Assembly: GCA_031273735.1 (NCBI GenBank)
Contig: JAISRI010000035.1
Location: 1-32,785, forward strand
Reading direction: 5' to 3'
Origin: Helicobacteraceae bacterium
GTDB taxonomy: Bacteria; Campylobacterota; Campylobacteria; Campylobacterales; SZUA-545
DNA length: 32,785 nt
Below the pieces are notes generated by a model that did not search any database, was not told the origin of the DNA, and saw nothing but the letters and a program-made list of their open reading frames with translations. Shown in pieces: positions 9,091 to 32,785 of the stretch. The translations under genes were made by a program, and so were the position numbers. Within the stretch, counting starts at the first letter, position 1; every line of letters begins with the position of its first letter.

Positions 9091-10112
9091 CGCTGCCGCC
9101 GCATTTACAATCGTTATTTGAAGAGATGTCTATGGCGGAAAAAACGGCTGTGTTTTTGATGCAGATGGGCGAGGACGTTACCGCGCAGGTCTTTACGCAT
9201 ATGGACGTCGATACGATTACGGAAATATCTAAGTATATCGCGCTTTCCAAAAACGTAGATAAGCAGATCGGTATGGCGGTTTTAGAGGAGTTTTACGCGA
9301 TCTTTCAATCCAACCAATATATCAACTCCGGCGGTATGGAATACGCCAAAGAGATTTTATATAAAGCGCTTGGTCCAGAAGAGGCGCGAAAGGTGCTTGA
9401 AAAACTTGCTAAATCTATGCAATCGGGGCAAAACTTTGGTTATCTTGGCAAGATCAAACCGCAGCAGCTATCCGATTTTATTATCAACGAACACCCGCAG
9501 GCAATCGCGTTAATTTTAGCGCATATGGACGCGAGCGCGGCGGCTGAAACGTTAAATCTATTTCCGGACGATTTACGCGGAGAGGTTTCTATGCGAATGG
9601 CGAATTTGGGCGATATATCTCCTACGATTATCAAACGGGTTTCTACTGTTTTAGAAAGCAAATTGGAGGCGCTCACGAGCTACAAAGTTGAGGTTGGCGG
9701 TCCTCGCGCCGTCGCGGACATTTTCAATCGTTTAGGCGCAAAGGCAAGCAAAGCCACTCTTGCGTATATCGAACAGGTCGACGAGGCGCTGGCAAGCTCG
9801 ATCAAAGAGATGATGTTTACCTTCGAGGATATTATCAAGCTCGATAACCACGCAGTTCGAGAGATATTGCGCAACGTCGATAAAAAAGAGCTTACGCTGG
9901 CTCTTAAAACCGCCTCCGATCCGCTTAAAGATAAGTTTTTCTCTAATATGTCGCAGCGAGCGGCGGATACGATGCGCGAAGAGCTTCAATATCTCGGCGC
10001 GGTCAAGGTGCGCGAAGTCGAAGCGGCGCAACGCAAAATCGTAGATAGCGTCCAACAGCTCGCCGAACAAGGCGTGATCGAAATGGGCGGCGAAGAAGAG
10101 GTGATCGAGTAA
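9087..10112 (+). CDS. fliG: Flagellar motor switch protein FliG
   Basis: NEHPQAIALILAHM, MFTFEDIIKLDNHAVREILRNVDKKELTLALK. Confidence 0.97.
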   Translation: MTLPPHLQSLFEEMSMAEKTAVFLMQMGEDVTAQVFTHMDVDTITEISKYIALSKNVDKQIGMAVLEEFYAIFQSNQYINSGGMEYAKEILYKALGPEEARKVLEKLAKSMQSGQNFGYLGKIKPQQLSDFIINEHPQAIALILAHMDASAAAETLNLFPDDLRGEVSMRMANLGDISPTIIKRVSTVLESKLEALTSYKVEVGGPRAVADIFNRLGAKASKATLAYIEQVDEALASSIKEMMFTFEDIIKLDNHAVREILRNVDKKELTLALKTASDPLKDKFFSNMSQRAADTMREELQYLGAVKVREVEAAQRKIVDSVQQLAEQGVIEMGGEEEVIE

Positions 10113-14436: not shown

Positions 14437-15027
14437 TTAGTCGCGCATTAGATTGTTTTCTTTTAGATATTCCAATGCGTTGCAATTACCCAATTCGCAC
14501 GTTTTTTTAGCGTCTTGCGCAGCTTTTTTGTAATTCGTTAAATTAAAATAGATAAGCCCGCGATTATTATATGCGCCGATATAGTTCGGATCTATTTTTA
14601 TCGTTTGGTCGTAATCGGCGATCGCTTTATCCGTATAGCCTAGACGGTTATAAACGCCCGCGCGGTTATAGTAAACGTCGGCATAGTTTGGGTTAAGTTT
14701 AATCGTCCTAGTATAATCGGCGATCGCTTTTTGATAATCGCCTAAATTGCGACGGACGTTTGCGCGGCTGAAATAAGCGTTGGCGTATTTTGCGTCGATC
14801 GCGAGCGCTTGGTCGTAATCGGAGATCGCTTTAATATAATCGCCCAATTTAGCGTAAACGCTCCCGCGAATATAGTAAATATGGGCGTTTTTGGGATACT
14901 CTTTGATAGCGATCGAAAATTGTTCGATCGCCTCTTGAAAATTGCCGCTTTCATAAGCGTGGGCGCCTTGCGTAAGCGCGCTTGGAGCGGCGTAAGCGGA
15001 TAAAAAGGCGCAAAATAAAACTGCCAA
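14437..15027 (-). CDS. Exported TPR protein (about 5 repeats); start codon uncertain (TTG at 15027, or an ACG at 15036 aligned to the paralogue's ATG)
   Basis: Tandem 34-aa TPRs (YAKLGDYIKAISDYDQALAIDAKYANAYFSRA...). Signal peptide with LSAYA|APS. Closely related to the protein at 17427-17927. Confidence 0.85.
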   Translation of the reverse strand: MAVLFCAFLSAYAAPSALTQGAHAYESGNFQEAIEQFSIAIKEYPKNAHIYYIRGSVYAKLGDYIKAISDYDQALAIDAKYANAYFSRANVRRNLGDYQKAIADYTRTIKLNPNYADVYYNRAGVYNRLGYTDKAIADYDQTIKIDPNYIGAYNNRGLIYFNLTNYKKAAQDAKKTCELGNCNALEYLKENNLMRD

Positions 15028-15290
15028 AATACGCGTTATCGTCCCCTTTCAAAATCAACCGCGAGCGTTATTTACGCGGATAGTTCCGTTTTCTATCCTC
15101 GCGATCATAGCGCTATAAAACCTCGCGCCTTGCCATTCTAGCGACAAGCGCGAACAGATAAAGCGCGCTTAGTTTGCTCGATTCGGGCGATTGCGGCGGC
15201 TTTCAAAATAAACGCGCTTGCTTGCGGAAGCTACGGGCAAACGGCGAGCTTTGCGCCGCTCGCATTGATAGGTTGGGCTATTTTTGCTAT

Positions 15291-15296
15291 TATAAT
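15291..15296 (+). promoter_or_regulatory. Candidate -10 element (TATAAT) for the 699-aa TPR gene
   Basis: Exact TATAAT 27 bp upstream of the ATG at 15323; a TTGATA lies at 15265 but the 20-bp spacer is suboptimal. Confidence 0.4.
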
Positions 15297-15322
15297 AGGA
15301 CTTTATGTCAAAGGCTTGATCA

Positions 15323-17422
15323 ATGCGTTTGAGTTTAGCTTTTGCGCTACTGCTTGTTTCGGTTTGCGCAGCCGAAGAACCCGTCGAAAAGGTCGATCCC
15401 AAAGAGGCGATCGAAATCTACACCAACCAGATTGGCGTTAATCCTAAAGCCGCCGAACCGTTTGTTAATCGCGCTTTTATCTACCTTGATATTGGCGAAA
15501 GCAAGAAGGCGATCGTCGATTTCACCCACGCGATTCTAAACGATCCAAATCTGGCGAACGCTTATAGCGGACGCGCTTTAGCCTACTCGAAAGAAAACGA
15601 CCGACAAAGAGCGATCGCCGATTATACAAAGGCTATCGAGCTTGGCGGGGACGCTATAGCGCTTCGCGTGGCGCGGGCGAACGAATATACGCTTTTGGGC
15701 GATCGCGCTTTGGCGATAGCGGACTATTCGGAGGCGATCAGAAGCGACGAGAACGACTACGCGGCGCATATTGCGCGGGGCAAGGCGCTTATTGGCGACG
15801 GTAAAACGCAGGCGGCGATCCGAGATTTTACCCGCGCTTTGCATATTAAGCCCGATCTAGCGGAAGTCTATTTCCTACGCGGCAACGCTTACGGCAAGTT
15901 AGGAGAAACCGAAAAGGCGATCGCCGACTATACAAACGGCGTTAAATACGACGGAAGCAAAGAGTCGTTTGCGCATCTTTCTCACGCCGTCGCTTCCCAA
16001 AAAATGCGCGACGATAAGAAGGCGCTTGAAAACTATGATCTAGCCTGTGCGTCCGATCCTAACGATTCGCTTCTTATCTTTTTACGCGCAATGACCCATT
16101 ATCGATTGGGCGAAGAGGCGCAGGCGATCGCCGATTACGACAAGACGATCGAAATCGATCCGAATCATCTAAGCGCGTATTTCAATAGAGCGGCGATTTA
16201 CTTTAGCCGAGAGGAGTATGAAAAAGCGATCGCCGATTTTTCGCAGGCGATCAAACTCGATCCCGAACCCGCGCAAGCCTATTTTATGCGCGCCGAATCT
16301 TATATGAAGCTAAACGATACCAAAAGCGCTTTAGCCGATTACAATCTAGCGGTTAAGAGCGATCCAAATCACGCGGGCGCTTATTACGGACGCGGACTAA
16401 TTACGGCGCAAAGCGGCGCTTTGGACGGCGCGATCGCGGATTTTTCAAAGACGATCGCGCTTGCGCCAAAAGACGCGAGAGCCTATTACGAACGCGGATC
16501 GGCGCTAACAAAAAGCGGCTATCATCAAAGCGCGATCGCCGATTTGACGCAGTCGCTAAAGCTAAATCCAAATTCGCCCAACGCATATCTAGCGCGCGGA
16601 TCGGCCCGTTTGAACGCGGGCTTTGCAAAAGACGCGATCGCCGACTATTCTCAAGCGATAGGGCTTAGTCCAATGTTAAAAGAGGCGTTGATCGGTCGCG
16701 GTTTTTCTTATATTCGTCTCGGCGATTATCAAAAGGCGATCAAAGATTTTTCGGATTATATTAAAAATACTCCCAACAACGCCGACTCCTTTTACGGACG
16801 CGGTTTGGCGCATTTGCGATCGGGCGCGCATCAAAACGCGATCGCCGATTTTGATCGAGCGCTTTCGCTTAACCGCAACCACGCTTTGGCGTTAAGCGCG
16901 CGCGGTTTGACTTACGCGGAGCAAAAAAATACTCAAAAGGCGCTCGCCGATTTTAGGCGTTCTATAGCGATCGATCCAAATTTGGCGGAAACTTATCGCG
17001 CTAGAGGTTCCGTATATCTTAAACAGGGTAGCCGCATAAACGCGATCGCCGATTTTGATCGGGCGATCAAGCTCGATCCAAACTACGCGCCAACCTACGT
17101 GGATAGAGCCGACGCGCGCGCGAAAACGGGCGATACAAAAAGGGCGTTCGCCGACTATGCGCAGGCGTTAAAGCTCGATCCAAACAACGAGCAAATCTAC
17201 CAAAAACGCGCCGCTTTGTATAGCAAACAGGGCGATTTTACAAGGGCAGTTAGAGATTTAAGCTCGGCGATCGAGCGAGATAGCGACAATCCCGCGCTAT
17301 ACGTCGATCGCGCAAACGCCTATCTAAAGCTAAAAGATCGGCGCACCGCTTTAAGAGACGCGAGAATGGCTTGCGAATTAAAGGACTGCGCGCTTCTCAA
17401 ACGCCTTGAAAACAGGAAGTAG
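15323..17422 (+). CDS. Secreted protein made of 19 tandem TPRs plus C-terminal cap
   Basis: Signal peptide MRLSLAFALLLVSVCAAEE, then 19 consecutive ~34-aa units (xxAIADYxxAIxLDPNxAxAYxxRGxAYxxxGD) and a DARMACELKDC cap. Confidence 0.93.
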   Translation: MRLSLAFALLLVSVCAAEEPVEKVDPKEAIEIYTNQIGVNPKAAEPFVNRAFIYLDIGESKKAIVDFTHAILNDPNLANAYSGRALAYSKENDRQRAIADYTKAIELGGDAIALRVARANEYTLLGDRALAIADYSEAIRSDENDYAAHIARGKALIGDGKTQAAIRDFTRALHIKPDLAEVYFLRGNAYGKLGETEKAIADYTNGVKYDGSKESFAHLSHAVASQKMRDDKKALENYDLACASDPNDSLLIFLRAMTHYRLGEEAQAIADYDKTIEIDPNHLSAYFNRAAIYFSREEYEKAIADFSQAIKLDPEPAQAYFMRAESYMKLNDTKSALADYNLAVKSDPNHAGAYYGRGLITAQSGALDGAIADFSKTIALAPKDARAYYERGSALTKSGYHQSAIADLTQSLKLNPNSPNAYLARGSARLNAGFAKDAIADYSQAIGLSPMLKEALIGRGFSYIRLGDYQKAIKDFSDYIKNTPNNADSFYGRGLAHLRSGAHQNAIADFDRALSLNRNHALALSARGLTYAEQKNTQKALADFRRSIAIDPNLAETYRARGSVYLKQGSRINAIADFDRAIKLDPNYAPTYVDRADARAKTGDTKRAFADYAQALKLDPNNEQIYQKRAALYSKQGDFTRAVRDLSSAIERDSDNPALYVDRANAYLKLKDRRTALRDARMACELKDCALLKRLENRK

Positions 17423-17426
17423 ACGC

Positions 17427-17927
17427 TCATTCGACAAGCAATTTGGAGTCGCTTAGATATATGAACGCTTCGCAATCGCCCAAATCGCACGCCGTTTTCG
17501 CGTCTAGCGTCGCGTTTTTATAATTTTTTTGCTTGGCGTAAGCCGTCGAACGATTGCTATAGGCTTTGGCGTTGATTGGATCGAGGGCGATAACCTGCGT
17601 CCAATCGGCGATCGCTTTATTTGTATCGCCCAACCTATAGTAAGAGTTTCCGCGACTATGATATGCGTTGGCGTTTGACGAATCGATCCTTACCGCTTGG
17701 TTAAAATCCGCGATCGCTCTACTGTAATCCTTTATGCTAGCGTAACTATTCCCCCGTCTAATATACGCCTCGACGTTATTCGGATCTTCTTTGATAGCGT
17801 TTGAAAACTGCTCGATCGCCTCTTGAAACTTGCCGCTTTTTCTAGCCTCAAGTCCCCGTTCATACGCGCTGGGCGCAACGCAACCAAACAATAAAAAACC
17901 GCAAAATAGAGCTATTAAACCTCGCAT
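17427..17927 (-). CDS. TPR lipoprotein (about 4 repeats)
   Basis: ATG start with AGGA-type RBS; lipobox LLFGC; TPRs KFQEAIEQFSNAIKEDPNNVEAYIRRGNSYASIKDYSRAIADF...; cap DAKTACDLGDC. Confidence 0.88.
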   Translation of the reverse strand: MRGLIALFCGFLLFGCVAPSAYERGLEARKSGKFQEAIEQFSNAIKEDPNNVEAYIRRGNSYASIKDYSRAIADFNQAVRIDSSNANAYHSRGNSYYRLGDTNKAIADWTQVIALDPINAKAYSNRSTAYAKQKNYKNATLDAKTACDLGDCEAFIYLSDSKLLVE

Positions 17928-28553: not shown

Positions 28554-28925
28554 ATGATCTTATCAAATTCGGACGGCGTTTCAGATAAAAAGACGATTTT
28601 GATCGCCGTTTTGTGCGATTCGCCGCTACTAACAAAAGCGTTGGAACGTATGTTAAAAACGCGGCTTGCGCCGCTAAACCGTTGCGATCTGGCGATCGGC
28701 GACAAGCCGCTAAAGATCGACAAGCCGCTTTTGGTCGTCGGCGATCATCTACCCAAGCCGTTTAGCCGCGAAAATCTTTTCGCCGCGATCGCCAGTTTTG
28801 AAAAACTATGGGATATTAAAGAGGCTTCAATTCAGCTTTTAGGCGCGAAAAATATCAAAGAAAAGATCGACGATCTGACCAACCGCTACGCCAAAGAGCT
28901 TTTAGAGCTTACGAGCCGAAAATGA
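28554..28925 (+). CDS. Conserved-type hypothetical protein upstream of rsmD
   Basis: 123-aa ORF overlapping rsmD by 4 bp (ATGA). Confidence 0.7.
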   Translation: MILSNSDGVSDKKTILIAVLCDSPLLTKALERMLKTRLAPLNRCDLAIGDKPLKIDKPLLVVGDHLPKPFSRENLFAAIASFEKLWDIKEASIQLLGAKNIKEKIDDLTNRYAKELLELTSRK

Positions 28926-29497
28926 ACGCGGCGAAAATTATCGGCGGCGCGTTGAAGGGGCGCAAAATCCTTCTGCCCGAACGCGACGGATCGCGCCCTA
29001 CAAAGGCGATCGCCCGCGAATCGATCTTTGATTCTCTGCAAAGCGAGATCGGAGCTTTTGCCTTTGCGGAGCTTTTCGCGGGAAGCGGATCGGTAGGATT
29101 GGAGGCGATCAGCCGCGGCGCGAAAAGCGCGATTTTTATCGAACGCGACAAAGCCGCTTTTGGCGTTTTGGAGCGAAATATCGCCGCTCTGAAAATCTCA
29201 AACGCGAAATGTTTTCTCGGCGATAGCTTCGTTTTGATCGCGCAGGCGATCGAATACCTGAAAGCGCAAAAACAAAAGGCGTGGTTCTATCTCGATCCGC
29301 CCTTTTCTATCCGCGAAGGTTTTTCGCAAATCTACGAACAGACGCAAACGCTTCTTTCGTCGCTTCCGATCGACGCTCTTGCGGGCGCGATAGTCGAACA
29401 TAGCTCAAATGTCGTCCTAAGCGATAGTTTAGGCGCTTTGGCAATCTCTAAAAGGCGCAAGTTCGGCAAAACGACTCTTAGTTACTACCAAATATAA
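28922..29497 (+). CDS. rsmD: 16S rRNA (guanine(966)-N(2))-methyltransferase RsmD
   Basis: IIGGALKGRKILLP, RPTKAIARESIFDSL, AELFAGSGSVGLEAISRGA, FYLDPPF. Confidence 0.93.
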   Translation: MNAAKIIGGALKGRKILLPERDGSRPTKAIARESIFDSLQSEIGAFAFAELFAGSGSVGLEAISRGAKSAIFIERDKAAFGVLERNIAALKISNAKCFLGDSFVLIAQAIEYLKAQKQKAWFYLDPPFSIREGFSQIYEQTQTLLSSLPIDALAGAIVEHSSNVVLSDSLGALAISKRRKFGKTTLSYYQI

Positions 29498-29508
29498 ACC
29501 TTCTTGTT

Positions 29509-29691
29509 ATTCCCGCGTCCTCTCTCGTCATTCCCGCGACGAAGCGATAGGCGCTCTCCAGCCGTCCATCGCGGAGGAAGGCGGGAATCCAAAAGGATCT
29601 AACGAAATACCGAACGCTTACGCATTTTCAACAAGCCCTACAAACGCCGTCATTCCCGCGAGGTATGGAGTAACCACAACGCGGCTTGTTG
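29509..29691. repeat. Cluster of ATTCCCGCG repeats with inverted copies
   Basis: ATTCCCGCG at 29509-29517, 29530-29538 and 29652-29660; inverted GCGGGAAT at 29581-29588; further inverted repeat CAACAAGCC (29629-29637) / GGCTTGTTG (29683-29691). Confidence 0.75.
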
Positions 29692-29709
29692 TAGAGGGGT
29701 TTTTTTTCA

Positions 29710-30870
29710 TTACGCTAACGCCCTGTGCAAGTTTTGAGCGTTTAATGAGTAATCGCTCGTAACTTCCCGAAAATCTTGCAAAAACTGCGGCGCGTGGGTA
29801 ACGTCTTGCGGGATATATTTCGCGTAATACGCGAGCGTCGTAGTCGGCGATTTATGCCCCAACATCTTCGAGACCCACAACAAATTCGCTCCTTTCGACA
29901 ATGCGATCGAGGCAAACGTGTGTCTTGTCGTGTATAACTCGCGATAATCTAGCAAGCACGCTCGCAAAACTCTTTCCCATTGCTCCCGTATAGTATTTAA
30001 CCACCCATACGCGTCGCCGCGATTTGTCATAAAGATAAACTTGTTCGCTAGCCCCGTTTCAAGGTATTGCTCGCGCAACGCTCTTTCAACTATCGGGAAC
30101 ATTTCGATTACCCGATTGCTTGACGGCGTTTTAAGTTTGCCCGTTTCTCCTTCCACCCGCTGTTGCTTGATTGCAATTCGGCGGGCGTGGAAGTTAATGC
30201 GTTCCCAGCGCAATCCGAGCAATTCGCCCGGGCGCATACCCGTGTAGAACGATATGGTTAGGAAGTTTTTGAACCAGCCCGTTGCGGTATCGAGTATTAG
30301 CTTAACCTCTTCCAAAGTAAAAGGCTCTTTCTCCTTTGCCTCTTTCTTCGGTTTTGGAACGTTGGCGAGAGGGTTTTTCGCGATAATACCCTCCGTAACC
30401 GCCAACCCAAAAATTAGGTTCAGAATCTTTCGGCGATCGTCTATGCCGCCGCCGTCTTTCACGAGCGCCCCCTGCCATTCGAGGAGTTCGAGCGACGTTA
30501 TATCGTCTATGCGCCGCTTGCCAAACGCAGGGCATACTTGGTTATGGAGCATTCGCGCGTAACGCGCGTTTGTCCTTTCCGCTCGATATTGTTCCGTCGC
30601 TTTTAGCGCCCTCACGCCAAACTCCTCCAACGTTACCCCGCCCGTAGATTTCTTAGGCGAGATTTTATCGCGGATAATGCTTTCCCATTCCCGCGCAACA
30701 TAGGCGAGATTGACTTTCGTCGCCTCTCGCCCCGAACTAATGCGATAGGTTTTGCCGTCTATCCTGCCGTAGGCATAGACGATACCGCCGCGATCGTAAC
30801 TGTGATGAGATTTTCCTTTCATCGGTTTTTTGCTCCTTATGCGGCTAGGAGCTAATCGGGTAACGCTCAT
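29710..30870 (-). CDS. Tyrosine recombinase/integrase
   Basis: Catalytic motifs FYTGMRPGELLGLRW, YTTRHTFASIALSKG, MLGHKSPTTTLAYYAKYI. Confidence 0.93.
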   Translation of the reverse strand: MSVTRLAPSRIRSKKPMKGKSHHSYDRGGIVYAYGRIDGKTYRISSGREATKVNLAYVAREWESIIRDKISPKKSTGGVTLEEFGVRALKATEQYRAERTNARYARMLHNQVCPAFGKRRIDDITSLELLEWQGALVKDGGGIDDRRKILNLIFGLAVTEGIIAKNPLANVPKPKKEAKEKEPFTLEEVKLILDTATGWFKNFLTISFYTGMRPGELLGLRWERINFHARRIAIKQQRVEGETGKLKTPSSNRVIEMFPIVERALREQYLETGLANKFIFMTNRGDAYGWLNTIREQWERVLRACLLDYRELYTTRHTFASIALSKGANLLWVSKMLGHKSPTTTLAYYAKYIPQDVTHAPQFLQDFREVTSDYSLNAQNLHRALA

Positions 30871-31145
30871 TTTACTTCCTTTTGCTTGATAGACCTGCGC
30901 GGCGCAAACTTATTTACGCTTGATCGTAAAATCAGATACTTTTTGCCGTCGCGGCGGTAATCGTGAGGCGAGATGTTCGCGTCGTTGATTAGCCGCCATC
31001 TAATTGCGCTTGGCGTTACGCCGCACATTTTGGCGACCTCTGGCACGCATAGGTATTTTGCTTCGGACGCTTCGATTAGCGTCTCTAGCCTGCGCTCTAT
31101 ACCCTCCAATTTGTTAATAACGATCAATCCGATTTCCGCGTTCAT
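30867..31145 (-). CDS. Small HTH protein, excisionase/AlpA-like
   Basis: YLCVPEVAKMCGVTPSAIRWRLINDANISPHDYRRDGKKYLI resembles a MerR/excisionase HTH; directly upstream of int with ATGA overlap. Confidence 0.6.
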   Translation of the reverse strand: MNAEIGLIVINKLEGIERRLETLIEASEAKYLCVPEVAKMCGVTPSAIRWRLINDANISPHDYRRDGKKYLILRSSVNKFAPRRSIKQKEVK

Positions 31146-32107
31146 TGCCGCTCCTCTAGCGCGATTGCGATTTGCGTTTCATAGTCTGCGCCGTAGAGCG
31201 CGGACATCACCGCCGTTTCAATGCCGCCCAAAGCCTCTACCGCTCGCGCTTCTTGCGCCGTAAAAAACGCCGCGCCGCTTCTTGCGCGTAAATCTTTGGA
31301 TTCGAGTTTCGCCGCTCTCTCGCGCAACTTCGGGTCTCTTTCAAACGACGCGCCCAATTCGCGGAGCTTTTGCGCTAGAGCTTGCGCCGCGCCGCTCTTT
31401 TTGGGCGCAATTTGAATATCTGAAACTTTAACCCCTTCGGGAACGCCGTCGACATAATCATCGTAGCGATCAAGAAACTTCGTAAAGTCCAACACAAAAC
31501 CTCTCGCTACTGGTTCTGTCTTTTTATAATTCTCTATCGCTATTTTTATTTTGTCGGCTTTTAACCATAGTTTTTTTATATTCCATTTCTTAATCGCTAA
31601 TTGTTTTGTGGTTTTTTTCGGATATATTTTATAAACGCTTTCAAATAATGTTTTATTTTCTTGCCGCGAAAACGCAAAATTAAAAAGTTCCCCCTTTACC
31701 CCCTCAAAAAGTAGATCTTCTTGTATGGGAGTATTTAAATTATTTAAAATATTTAATTGCGCGGGCGCCTGCGTTTCTATAATATGGGAATTGGTTTCAG
31801 AAGTATCATTTTGACACTTCAGAAGTGTCAATTTGACACTTTGCTCTATTGCGTTTTCGGTAAAAATTATCGCTCTATTTCTTCGATTGCCCGCATTTAT
31901 TATTAGCTCTTTCGCGTAAAGCCTTTTTAATATGCTCTTAACGCTATTTTCGCTTGTCATTAGCATTTGCGCTATCATTTTATTCGATAGCGAAAACTCG
32001 CCTTTTTCTATAATTTCGCCAAATATCAACCCCGATAAGAGCTTCTCGCTCGGCGTTAGTTTTTTGTCGTTCAAGAACCTATCGGTTGCAATTGCGTAGT
32101 TATACAT
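31142..32107 (-). CDS. Phage/plasmid-type replication initiator-like protein (N-terminal winged helix, C-terminal YPKK domain)
   Basis: N-term LTPSEKLLSGLIFGEIIEKGEFSLSNKMIAQMLMTSENSVKSILKRLYAKELI; C-term FESVYKIYPKKTTKQLAIKKWNIKKLWLKADKIKIAIENYKK...FTKFLDRYDDYVDG, the pattern common in phage replication proteins. Confidence 0.65.
   Translation of the reverse strand: MYNYAIATDRFLNDKKLTPSEKLLSGLIFGEIIEKGEFSLSNKMIAQMLMTSENSVKSILKRLYAKELIINAGNRRNRAIIFTENAIEQSVKLTLLKCQNDTSETNSHIIETQAPAQLNILNNLNTPIQEDLLFEGVKGELFNFAFSRQENKTLFESVYKIYPKKTTKQLAIKKWNIKKLWLKADKIKIAIENYKKTEPVARGFVLDFTKFLDRYDDYVDGVPEGVKVSDIQIAPKKSGAAQALAQKLRELGASFERDPKLRERAAKLESKDLRARSGAAFFTAQEARAVEALGGIETAVMSALYGADYETQIAIALEERQ
31732..31758. 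repeat. 27-bp pure A/T tract of three tandem 9-mers (candidate DNA-unwinding element)
   Basis: TATTTAAAT-TATTTAAAA-TATTTAATT read directly. Confidence 0.9.
31796..31841. repeat. Two tandem 22-bp iteron-like repeats with internal palindromes
   Basis: ttcagaagtatcattttgacac / ttcagaagtgtcaatttgacac (20/22 identical). Perfect inverted repeat TTGACACTTC-A-GAAGTGTCAA (31811-31831) and AAGTGTCA-ATT-TGACACTT (31823-31841). Confidence 0.92.
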
Positions 32108-32357
32108 CGGCTCTCCACCATTTGGCTTTTATCAGCTCTTTATGCGATAGCTTCTCTAGCATAGGCGCAACGCTCTTGGCGGGAACGTTCAATATCCGCG
32201 CCAACTCCTCGTCCGTTAGCTCAAAGCCGCCTTTTAGCGCAAAATCGCCAAAAATTAGCCCAGCTAGGAGCTTCTCGTTTGCCGTTAGGCTCGTATCCGT
32301 CAATATCCTCATAGGCGTTATCGCTAACGCCTTTATCGTCTTTATATCGTTGGTCAT
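32100..32357 (-). CDS. Stand-alone winged-helix protein, paralogous to the N-terminus of the 31142-32107 product
   Basis: LTANEKLLAGLIFGDFALKGGFELTDEELARILNVPAKSVAPMLEKLSHKELI aligns with LTPSEKLLSGLIFGEIIEKGEFSLSNKMIAQMLMTSENSVKSILKRLYAKELI. Confidence 0.75.
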   Translation of the reverse strand: MTNDIKTIKALAITPMRILTDTSLTANEKLLAGLIFGDFALKGGFELTDEELARILNVPAKSVAPMLEKLSHKELIKAKWWRADV

Positions 32358-32500
32358 TGTTTGTCCTTTTCTTGGGGTTCTATTGGCTTTTCGGTCGTTA
32401 ATTTGTTCGCCTTGTCGTTTTTCTCGCGGGCGAGCAGATCGGCAAGGCGTTTATCTAGTCCCGTCGTATCGAGGTGGTGGGTGTGGGGGCTTTCGCTCAT
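32354..32500 (-). CDS. Very small hypothetical protein (48 aa)
   Basis: ATG at 32500 (MSESPHTHHLDTTGLDKRLADLLAREKND...); 4-bp overlap with the downstream gene. The longer track ORF is mostly in the antisense-like low-complexity R-rich frame. Confidence 0.4.
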   Translation of the reverse strand: MSESPHTHHLDTTGLDKRLADLLAREKNDKANKLTTEKPIEPQEKDKQ

Positions 32501-32785
32501 TTTTTTGCCCTGTAGTTGAAAGTTGAAACGCCGGCACCGGATAAGCGTCCATATCCGTCTGCTCGCGAGTAAGCGCCGAAGCCGCCTTTGGCGCGAGCGC
32601 TCTAAGCTCTTCCTTGACGTAATATTTCGCGTCGTAAGCGTTAAGCGTAGCGATCGCGGCGGATAAAAACGCCTCCCAATCAATATCAACCTGCATACCG
32701 CTTACCGCTCCGATTTTATAAAAGTCGACAAGTCTCTCCTCTAGCGCTATTTTTAGCAAGGCGACGCTCTCGTCGGAGTCAATAA
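32451..32785 (-). CDS. Hypothetical protein, 5' end beyond window
   Basis: Frame remains open to the window edge (...IDSDESVALLKIALEERLVDFYKIGAVSGMQVDIDWEAFLSAAIATL...); the track start at 32759 is a TTG codon inside this longer frame. Confidence 0.5.
   Translation of the reverse strand, partial: IDSDESVALLKIALEERLVDFYKIGAVSGMQVDIDWEAFLSAAIATLNAYDAKYYVKEELRALAPKAASALTREQTDMDAYPVPAFQLSTTGQKNERKPPHPPPRYDGTR

Follow-up and report, generated by a model that had tools for sequence, protein, structure and literature searches.

Replication origins embedded in the gene of their own initiator are known from phage lambda, whose ori lies in gene O (NC_001416, PMC7466680). It consists of tandem imperfect palindromic iterons at 20–24 bp spacing, which fall in the initiator's linker and in more than one reading frame, with an A/T-rich unwinding region just 3' of them. 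Used as a positive control, lambda O gave iterons at residues 116–144, read in three frames and spaced by 20, 24 and 23 bp; the sequence 10–40 bp after the iterons is 80% A/T, and the best A/T window, 13 bp downstream, ranks in the top 0.3% of the gene. Work cited in PMC7466680 gives two iterons plus the A/T region as the minimal unwinding unit in lambda. Lambda-like origins have also been predicted in Francisella phage KIRK (PMC7924643) and Pseudomonas phage MD8 (PMC8508860). Because lambda has an embedded origin and others are predicted in other phages, the locus described here is classed with them as a further example. It very probably represents, at 31732–31841, the replication origin of an integrative element, located in the linker of the element's own initiator gene.

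The window, that is, the whole stretch of DNA that was analysed, is the complete 32785-bp contig C42 of a 2.04-Mb Helicobacteraceae genome. Its right end carries, on the minus strand, overlapping genes for an 85-aa winged-helix protein, an initiator-like protein (Rep), an Xis-like protein and a tyrosine integrase. The features are as follows:

29710..30870, minus strand: tyrosine integrase gene, overlapping xis (Pfam Phage_integrase, E 4e-17; PHROG integrase, E 5.5e-62)
30867..31145, minus strand: gene for an Xis-like HTH protein (Pfam HTH_17, E 1e-6, above cut-off; weak excisionase PHROGs)
31142..32107, minus strand: rep, gene for a 321-aa replication initiator-like protein (PHROG 270 "replication initiation protein", E 7.9e-9, residues 3–262; AlphaFold2 model) with a winged helix (residues ~12–82), a disordered linker (~90–146) and a YPKK domain (~150–220)
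31732..31758, minus strand: candidate DNA unwinding element, three 9-mers NNTTAAATA that make up an A/T-only tract of 27 bp, 42 bp 3' of iteron 2
31801..31819, minus strand: iteron 2, a 19-bp palindrome with one mismatch between its arms, AAGTGTCA-AAA-TGATACTT = AAGTGTCAAAATGATACTT, read in a different frame from iteron 1 as CQNDT
31823..31841, minus strand: iteron 1, a perfect 19-bp palindrome, AAGTGTCA-AAT-TGACACTT = AAGTGTCAAATTGACACTT, read as VKLT
32100..32357, minus strand: gene for an 85-aa protein paralogous to the winged-helix N-terminus of Rep (45% identity across 66 aa, E 5.7e-9; profile match E 1e-13)

The start of the xis-like gene overlaps the stop of rep (ATGA), and the gene of the 85-aa paralogue, whose homology is to the Rep winged helix alone, overlaps the rep start. 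This small protein is possibly a regulator or a truncated duplicate, and it could bind the rep iterons and regulate Rep. The Rep protein itself matches no Pfam family above the gathering cut-off, HTH_36 and Rep_3 included, and a Foldseek comparison of its model with the PDB retrieved generic winged helices only (E at least 0.1). Its membership of PHROG 270 rests on a profile match that spans both the winged helix and the C-terminal domain.

The initial annotation had described tandem repeats, identical at 20 of 22 positions, within the rep coding sequence, and an A/T-only tract of three 9-mers further downstream. Both are confirmed at the coordinates first given. The 22-bp units lie at 31796–31817 and 31818–31839; the two 19-bp palindromes that they form on the coding strand, AAGTGTCA-N3-TGACACTT, are 22 bp apart. 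Allowing for up to 2 mismatches, the window contains no further copy, and the pattern AAGTGTCANNNTGAYACTT has no other occurrence in the 2.04-Mb genome. The tract is the sole A/T run of at least 18 bp in the window, where the longest run before position 31,100 is 16 bp. By coordinates, the iterons encode residues 89–103 and the tract residues 117–126. The AlphaFold2 model (33 sequences, mean pLDDT 66.8) has a confident winged helix up to residue ~82, with blocks within 11–70 at ~89–97, and pLDDT falls below 50 at residues 90–111 and 113–146; the iterons and the tract therefore both lie in the linker, as had been proposed. When the codons of rep were shuffled synonymously, a palindrome pair of equal quality at 21–23 bp arose in 1 of 3000 shuffles, and equally good tandem 19-mer palindromes of generic type in none of 2000. 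An A/T run of at least 27 bp arose in 15 of 3000, and it is only the length of the run that is unusual, the A/T content of rep at 5–55 bp downstream being no higher than in the shuffles (z −0.16).

Two relatives of rep were found, both solely through whole-genome searches of the family and the order; single-protein searches of phage records, plasmids, IMG/VR and GTDB contigs returned none. Within the family, 1 of 14 other genomes (G305, of the same genus) carries a clear homologue, on contig C165, 42% identical by BLAST and in the same rep-xis-int order, and the close relatives G117 and G303 lack the gene. Two copies of GGGTGTCAATTTGACACCC, 44 bp apart, occupy the position in the linker of the G305 homologue that the iterons have in the window. 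Aligned as DNA, the two iteron pairs match once a gap of exactly 22 columns is allowed, at the site of a decayed middle copy, GTGTCCGAAAAATTGAC. The reading frames of homologous iterons are opposite, giving VKLT/CQNDT in the window and CQFDT/VNLT in G305, and the outer iteron arms differ by symmetric changes, AA..TT in the window being GG..CC in G305. Such a frame swap combined with symmetric arm changes is what a symmetric dimer on DNA would predict, unlike selection on the peptide. The unwinding element is not conserved in G305, where rep has no pure A/T run comparable to that of the window, the longest being 10–11 bp. Two DNA methyltransferase-like genes lie directly upstream of rep in G305 (C165, L007 116–2151), and Labrenzia phage L152 is similar.

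The other relative, a distant one in the single-contig genome G337, was the one further hit of a profile of the window and G305 proteins across 400 genomes of the order. Here rep is followed by a small ORF and an integrase beside tRNA-Met, with a LexA/CI-like repressor in the opposite direction. Its linker holds three palindromes, GGACA-N4-TGTCC, spaced 21 and 24 bp, and a 27-bp A/T run begins 9 bp after them in a gene that is just 48% A/T; the palindromes and the run were each reproduced in 0 of 3000 synonymous shuffles. Judging from these features, G337 retains the layout with a changed iteron sequence. Homologues that keep the protein and have lost the repeats had been named in advance as evidence against an origin. 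Both relatives that match over the full length or the C-terminal part keep repeats, and the distant winged-helix genes L077 and L078 are without them. The PHROG-270-like matches L071–L080 in the family include three clear wHTH genes, L072, L077 and L078, with no TGTCA palindromes within the gene, and some of the other matches were rejected as unrelated proteins, e.g. an ABC transporter in L076. L078 (G000:C127 13030–13320) and L077 (G305:C10) are other initiator-like winged-helix genes in these genomes, with no TGTCA iterons in a linker.

The same iteron occurs well beyond this order. IMG/VR was searched, by DNA alone and with no protein information, for two copies of GTGTCA-N3-TGACAC 1–31 bp apart. 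Tandem copies are present in 61 viral contigs; a control palindrome matched in composition gave 3, none of them in an initiator-like ORF. In ~55 of the 61 contigs the sites fall within one ORF, which mostly encodes a winged-helix replication initiator. Carrier proteins (66, with the window protein and a relative included) were scanned in two batches, the second of which deliberately contained short doubtful ORFs; PHROG 270 was matched by 56 of them at E up to 1e-3 (33/33 and 23/33), and Pfam HTH_36 also by 23 of the 33 in the first batch at E up to 0.01. A winged-helix profile of the other carriers, with the linker removed, recognizes residues 1–86 of the window protein at E 1e-4, the best of 200 shuffles reaching E 0.23. 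Carriers in named genomes include Actinomyces, Corynebacterium, Selenomonas, Novosphingobium, Variovorax, Thorsellia, Synergistaceae and Kiritimatiellia. Two loci, L046 (11869–11990) and L059 (3202–3301), have 5–6 TGTCA palindromes at ~22-bp steps in an intergenic position, between a short winged-helix ORF and PcfK/PcfJ-like genes; the order of winged helix followed by iterons is therefore independent of translation as a linker. The form with flipped half-sites, GTGACA-N3-TGTCAC, is found in 46 contigs, and 19 of 23 scanned proteins match PHROG 270. In Psychrobacter phage vB_PmaS_Y8A (L150, 669–1478), an HTH gene with GTGACA-N3-TGTCAC palindromes in its linker is followed by replication protein P. 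A pattern scan of genome contigs was dominated by arrays of Alicyclobacillus and an allied MAG, which were set aside as another kind of repeat with a 41-bp period. These are long GTGTCA-N3-TGACAC arrays, seen in NZ_CP066784.1 (Alicyclobacillus sp. ALC3, e.g. L084) and MAG YS1.bin19 at many chromosomal places, outside initiator genes.

Embedding in a gene puts a particular constraint on this sequence, as the reading frame set by the first base of GTGTCA-N3-TGACAC includes a TGA stop. Among non-redundant ORFs, perfect sites occur 90 times in frame 1 and 74 times in frame 2, and never in the frame that reads TGA. Slots in the forbidden frame 21–23 bp from a site hold 11 sites with exactly one mismatch, and in all 11 the mismatch removes the stop (CGA, GGA, AGA, TGG or TGT); of 13918 background windows, 1 is as good. 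For GTGACA-N3-TGTCAC the forbidden frame is a different one, as expected from where its stop falls, and that frame is empty (frame 1, 44; frame 0, 19; frame 2, 0). This frame rule is strong evidence that selection acts on the DNA sites themselves, and, together with the frame swap and symmetric arm changes between the window and G305, it supports maintenance of the repeats at the DNA level beyond coding constraint, a check that the initial annotation had called for.

Across the class, the spacing of sites peaks at 21–23 and 44–45 bp, and the surrounding composition is one-sided. In 58 genes, A/T content exceeds the gene mean by 0.116 at 10–40 bp after the array, the excess being near zero more than 100 bp after the array and at most ~0.03 ahead of it. 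In 63% of genes the 150 bp that follow the array include the gene's most A/T-rich 27-bp window, where 18% would be expected by length. Relative to synonymous shuffles the excess at 5–55 bp is 0.045 (s.e. 0.006); the shuffles explain part of it, and some of the enrichment therefore derives from amino-acid composition. We consider it fairly likely that winged-helix initiators of phages and elements, highly diverged and spread over many bacterial phyla, have in common a single palindromic origin code, TGTCA-N3-TGACA and its flipped form with a ~22-bp period, which is placed in the linkers of the initiators and restricted in reading frame by the TGA stop within the site. In the open-licence literature, no description was found of the iteron sequence, of its recurrence across phyla or of the frame rule.

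Compared with the described systems, the locus is lambda-like in layout. It shares with lambda-type origins a spacing of ~20–24 bp, a position in the linker of the initiator's own gene with iterons in more than one frame, an A/T region on the 3' side and conservation beyond coding constraint. It differs in having two iterons instead of four, in iteron sequence, and in being followed by xis and int instead of P; a P-like loader gene beside the initiator is not required for the origin itself. The lambda-like logic claimed by the initial annotation thus holds for the layout, which recurs in the two relatives and in lambda, and does not extend to the protein, in which no homology to lambda O is detectable (hhalign probability 0.1–0.2), so that the sequence comparison does not identify Rep as a member of the lambda O family. 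Phages KIRK and MD8 resemble the window in that the repeats are predicted inside an initiator-like gene; the phages and the repeats are different, and theirs are likewise predictions. With the PHROG 270/HTH_36-type phage initiators, to which the carriers of the same iteron belong, Rep shares the PHROG 270 match, but it is divergent, with no HTH_36 match and no relative in the phage and plasmid records searched. Pseudomonas phage JBD68 gp54 has the same arrangement of winged helix, linker palindromes and YPKK-type C-terminal domain; its iteron sequence differs from that of the window and consists of two perfect copies of GGTGCAAC-G-GTTGCACC. Annotated as a hypothetical protein (L204, KY707339 33447–34283), gp54 has a PHROG 1032/270 initiator match and the linker palindromes GGTGCAACGGTTGCACC, and is an unannotated candidate for an embedded origin in a phage of laboratory use. 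Classical iteron plasmids of the Rep_3/RepA type are a poor fit, the iterons of the window being inside the gene, with no Rep_3 match and no plasmid relative.

The most likely mechanism is as follows. The N-terminal winged helix of Rep would bind each 19-bp palindrome as a dimer, and two such dimers, placed on the same side of the DNA at a distance of two helical turns, could form an O-some-like complex. This complex would strain and open the 27-bp A/T tract ~42 bp downstream. Recruitment of a host DnaB-type helicase, the weakest step of the scheme, might be achieved by the C-terminal YPKK domain or by an unseen partner. No P-like helicase loader was seen beside rep, which is followed by xis and int, and the rest of the element would lie beyond the contig end at 32785. 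For these two reasons the element cannot be called self-contained, as the initial annotation had it; the assignment to a Campylobacterota host agrees with the Helicobacteraceae genome.

The features on which the origin reading rests are present in the sequence itself: an initiator-type protein, the palindromes with their spacing and placement, their frame-independent maintenance at the DNA level and the adjacent A/T tract. Against it stand the number of iterons, only two with an arm mismatch in one, the missing pure A/T run in G305, the A/T content 5–55 bp downstream of the window's iterons, which does not exceed that of the shuffles, and the lack of a lambda P-like loader adjoining rep. The number of iterons is no bar, since two plus an A/T region suffice for unwinding in lambda. 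The main rival is intragenic autoregulation, in which the palindromes would form an operator, with no origin function, where Rep or the 85-aa paralogue represses or road-blocks its own operon. Winged-helix proteins frequently bind palindromes, the 85-aa N-terminal paralogue could be the regulator, and a site in mid-gene would affect xis and int downstream. The carriers, however, are overwhelmingly annotated as replication initiators, repeats at 22-bp steps with a one-sided A/T stretch are features of origins, and in L046 and L059 the 5–6 copies follow the winged-helix ORF and precede the genes after it. An operator without origin function is quite improbable, and autoregulation may coexist with origin function.

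It is also unlikely that the architecture is real by descent and that the copy in the window is decaying and inactive; the low number of iterons with one imperfect, the origin of the contig as a fragment in a MAG and the absence of the gene from G117 and G303 would agree with this, yet the frames of rep, xis and int overlap and are unbroken, and a perfect iteron and the A/T run have been kept. Two further readings deny the repeats a role as DNA sites, and both are very improbable. That they are peptide repeats of a flexible linker would suit its disorder and tolerance, but the 22-bp period is out of frame, the copies encode VKLT and CQNDT, homologous iterons have swapped frames between relatives, and the class-wide, frame-specific changes that avoid stops already contradict it. 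Palindromes with a 3-nt centre could fold in RNA and act as hairpins for attenuation or termination in the rep transcript; region 28900–32785 has no Rfam match, and folding leaves the 21–23 and 44–45 bp spacing peaks and the A/T side preference unexplained.

The origin reading places a lambda-style initiator and a candidate origin in a mobile element of Helicobacteraceae, where the papers searched describe none, and the short segment is a possible replicon for an uncultured lineage. Frame-locked palindromes provide a sequence rule for finding origins in phage initiator genes that are annotated just as "helix-turn-helix protein" or hypothetical. If the shared origin code is real, sequence alone could suffice to locate the origin in many uncharacterised temperate phages.

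As regards the integration of the element, the last ~200 bp of rsmD and ~50 bp downstream are present twice in the genome, at 97% identity: at 29293–29546 of the window, adjoining the integrase, and at 9248–9499 of contig C104 (G000:C104, L196), at the end of that contig. The duplication points to the 3' end of rsmD as the attachment site. In relatives, however, rsmD does not adjoin the genes found past the second copy, and the gene order downstream of rsmD there does not match C104. Elsewhere in the window, three adjacent tetratricopeptide-repeat-like genes, one of 699 aa, lie at 14437–17927.
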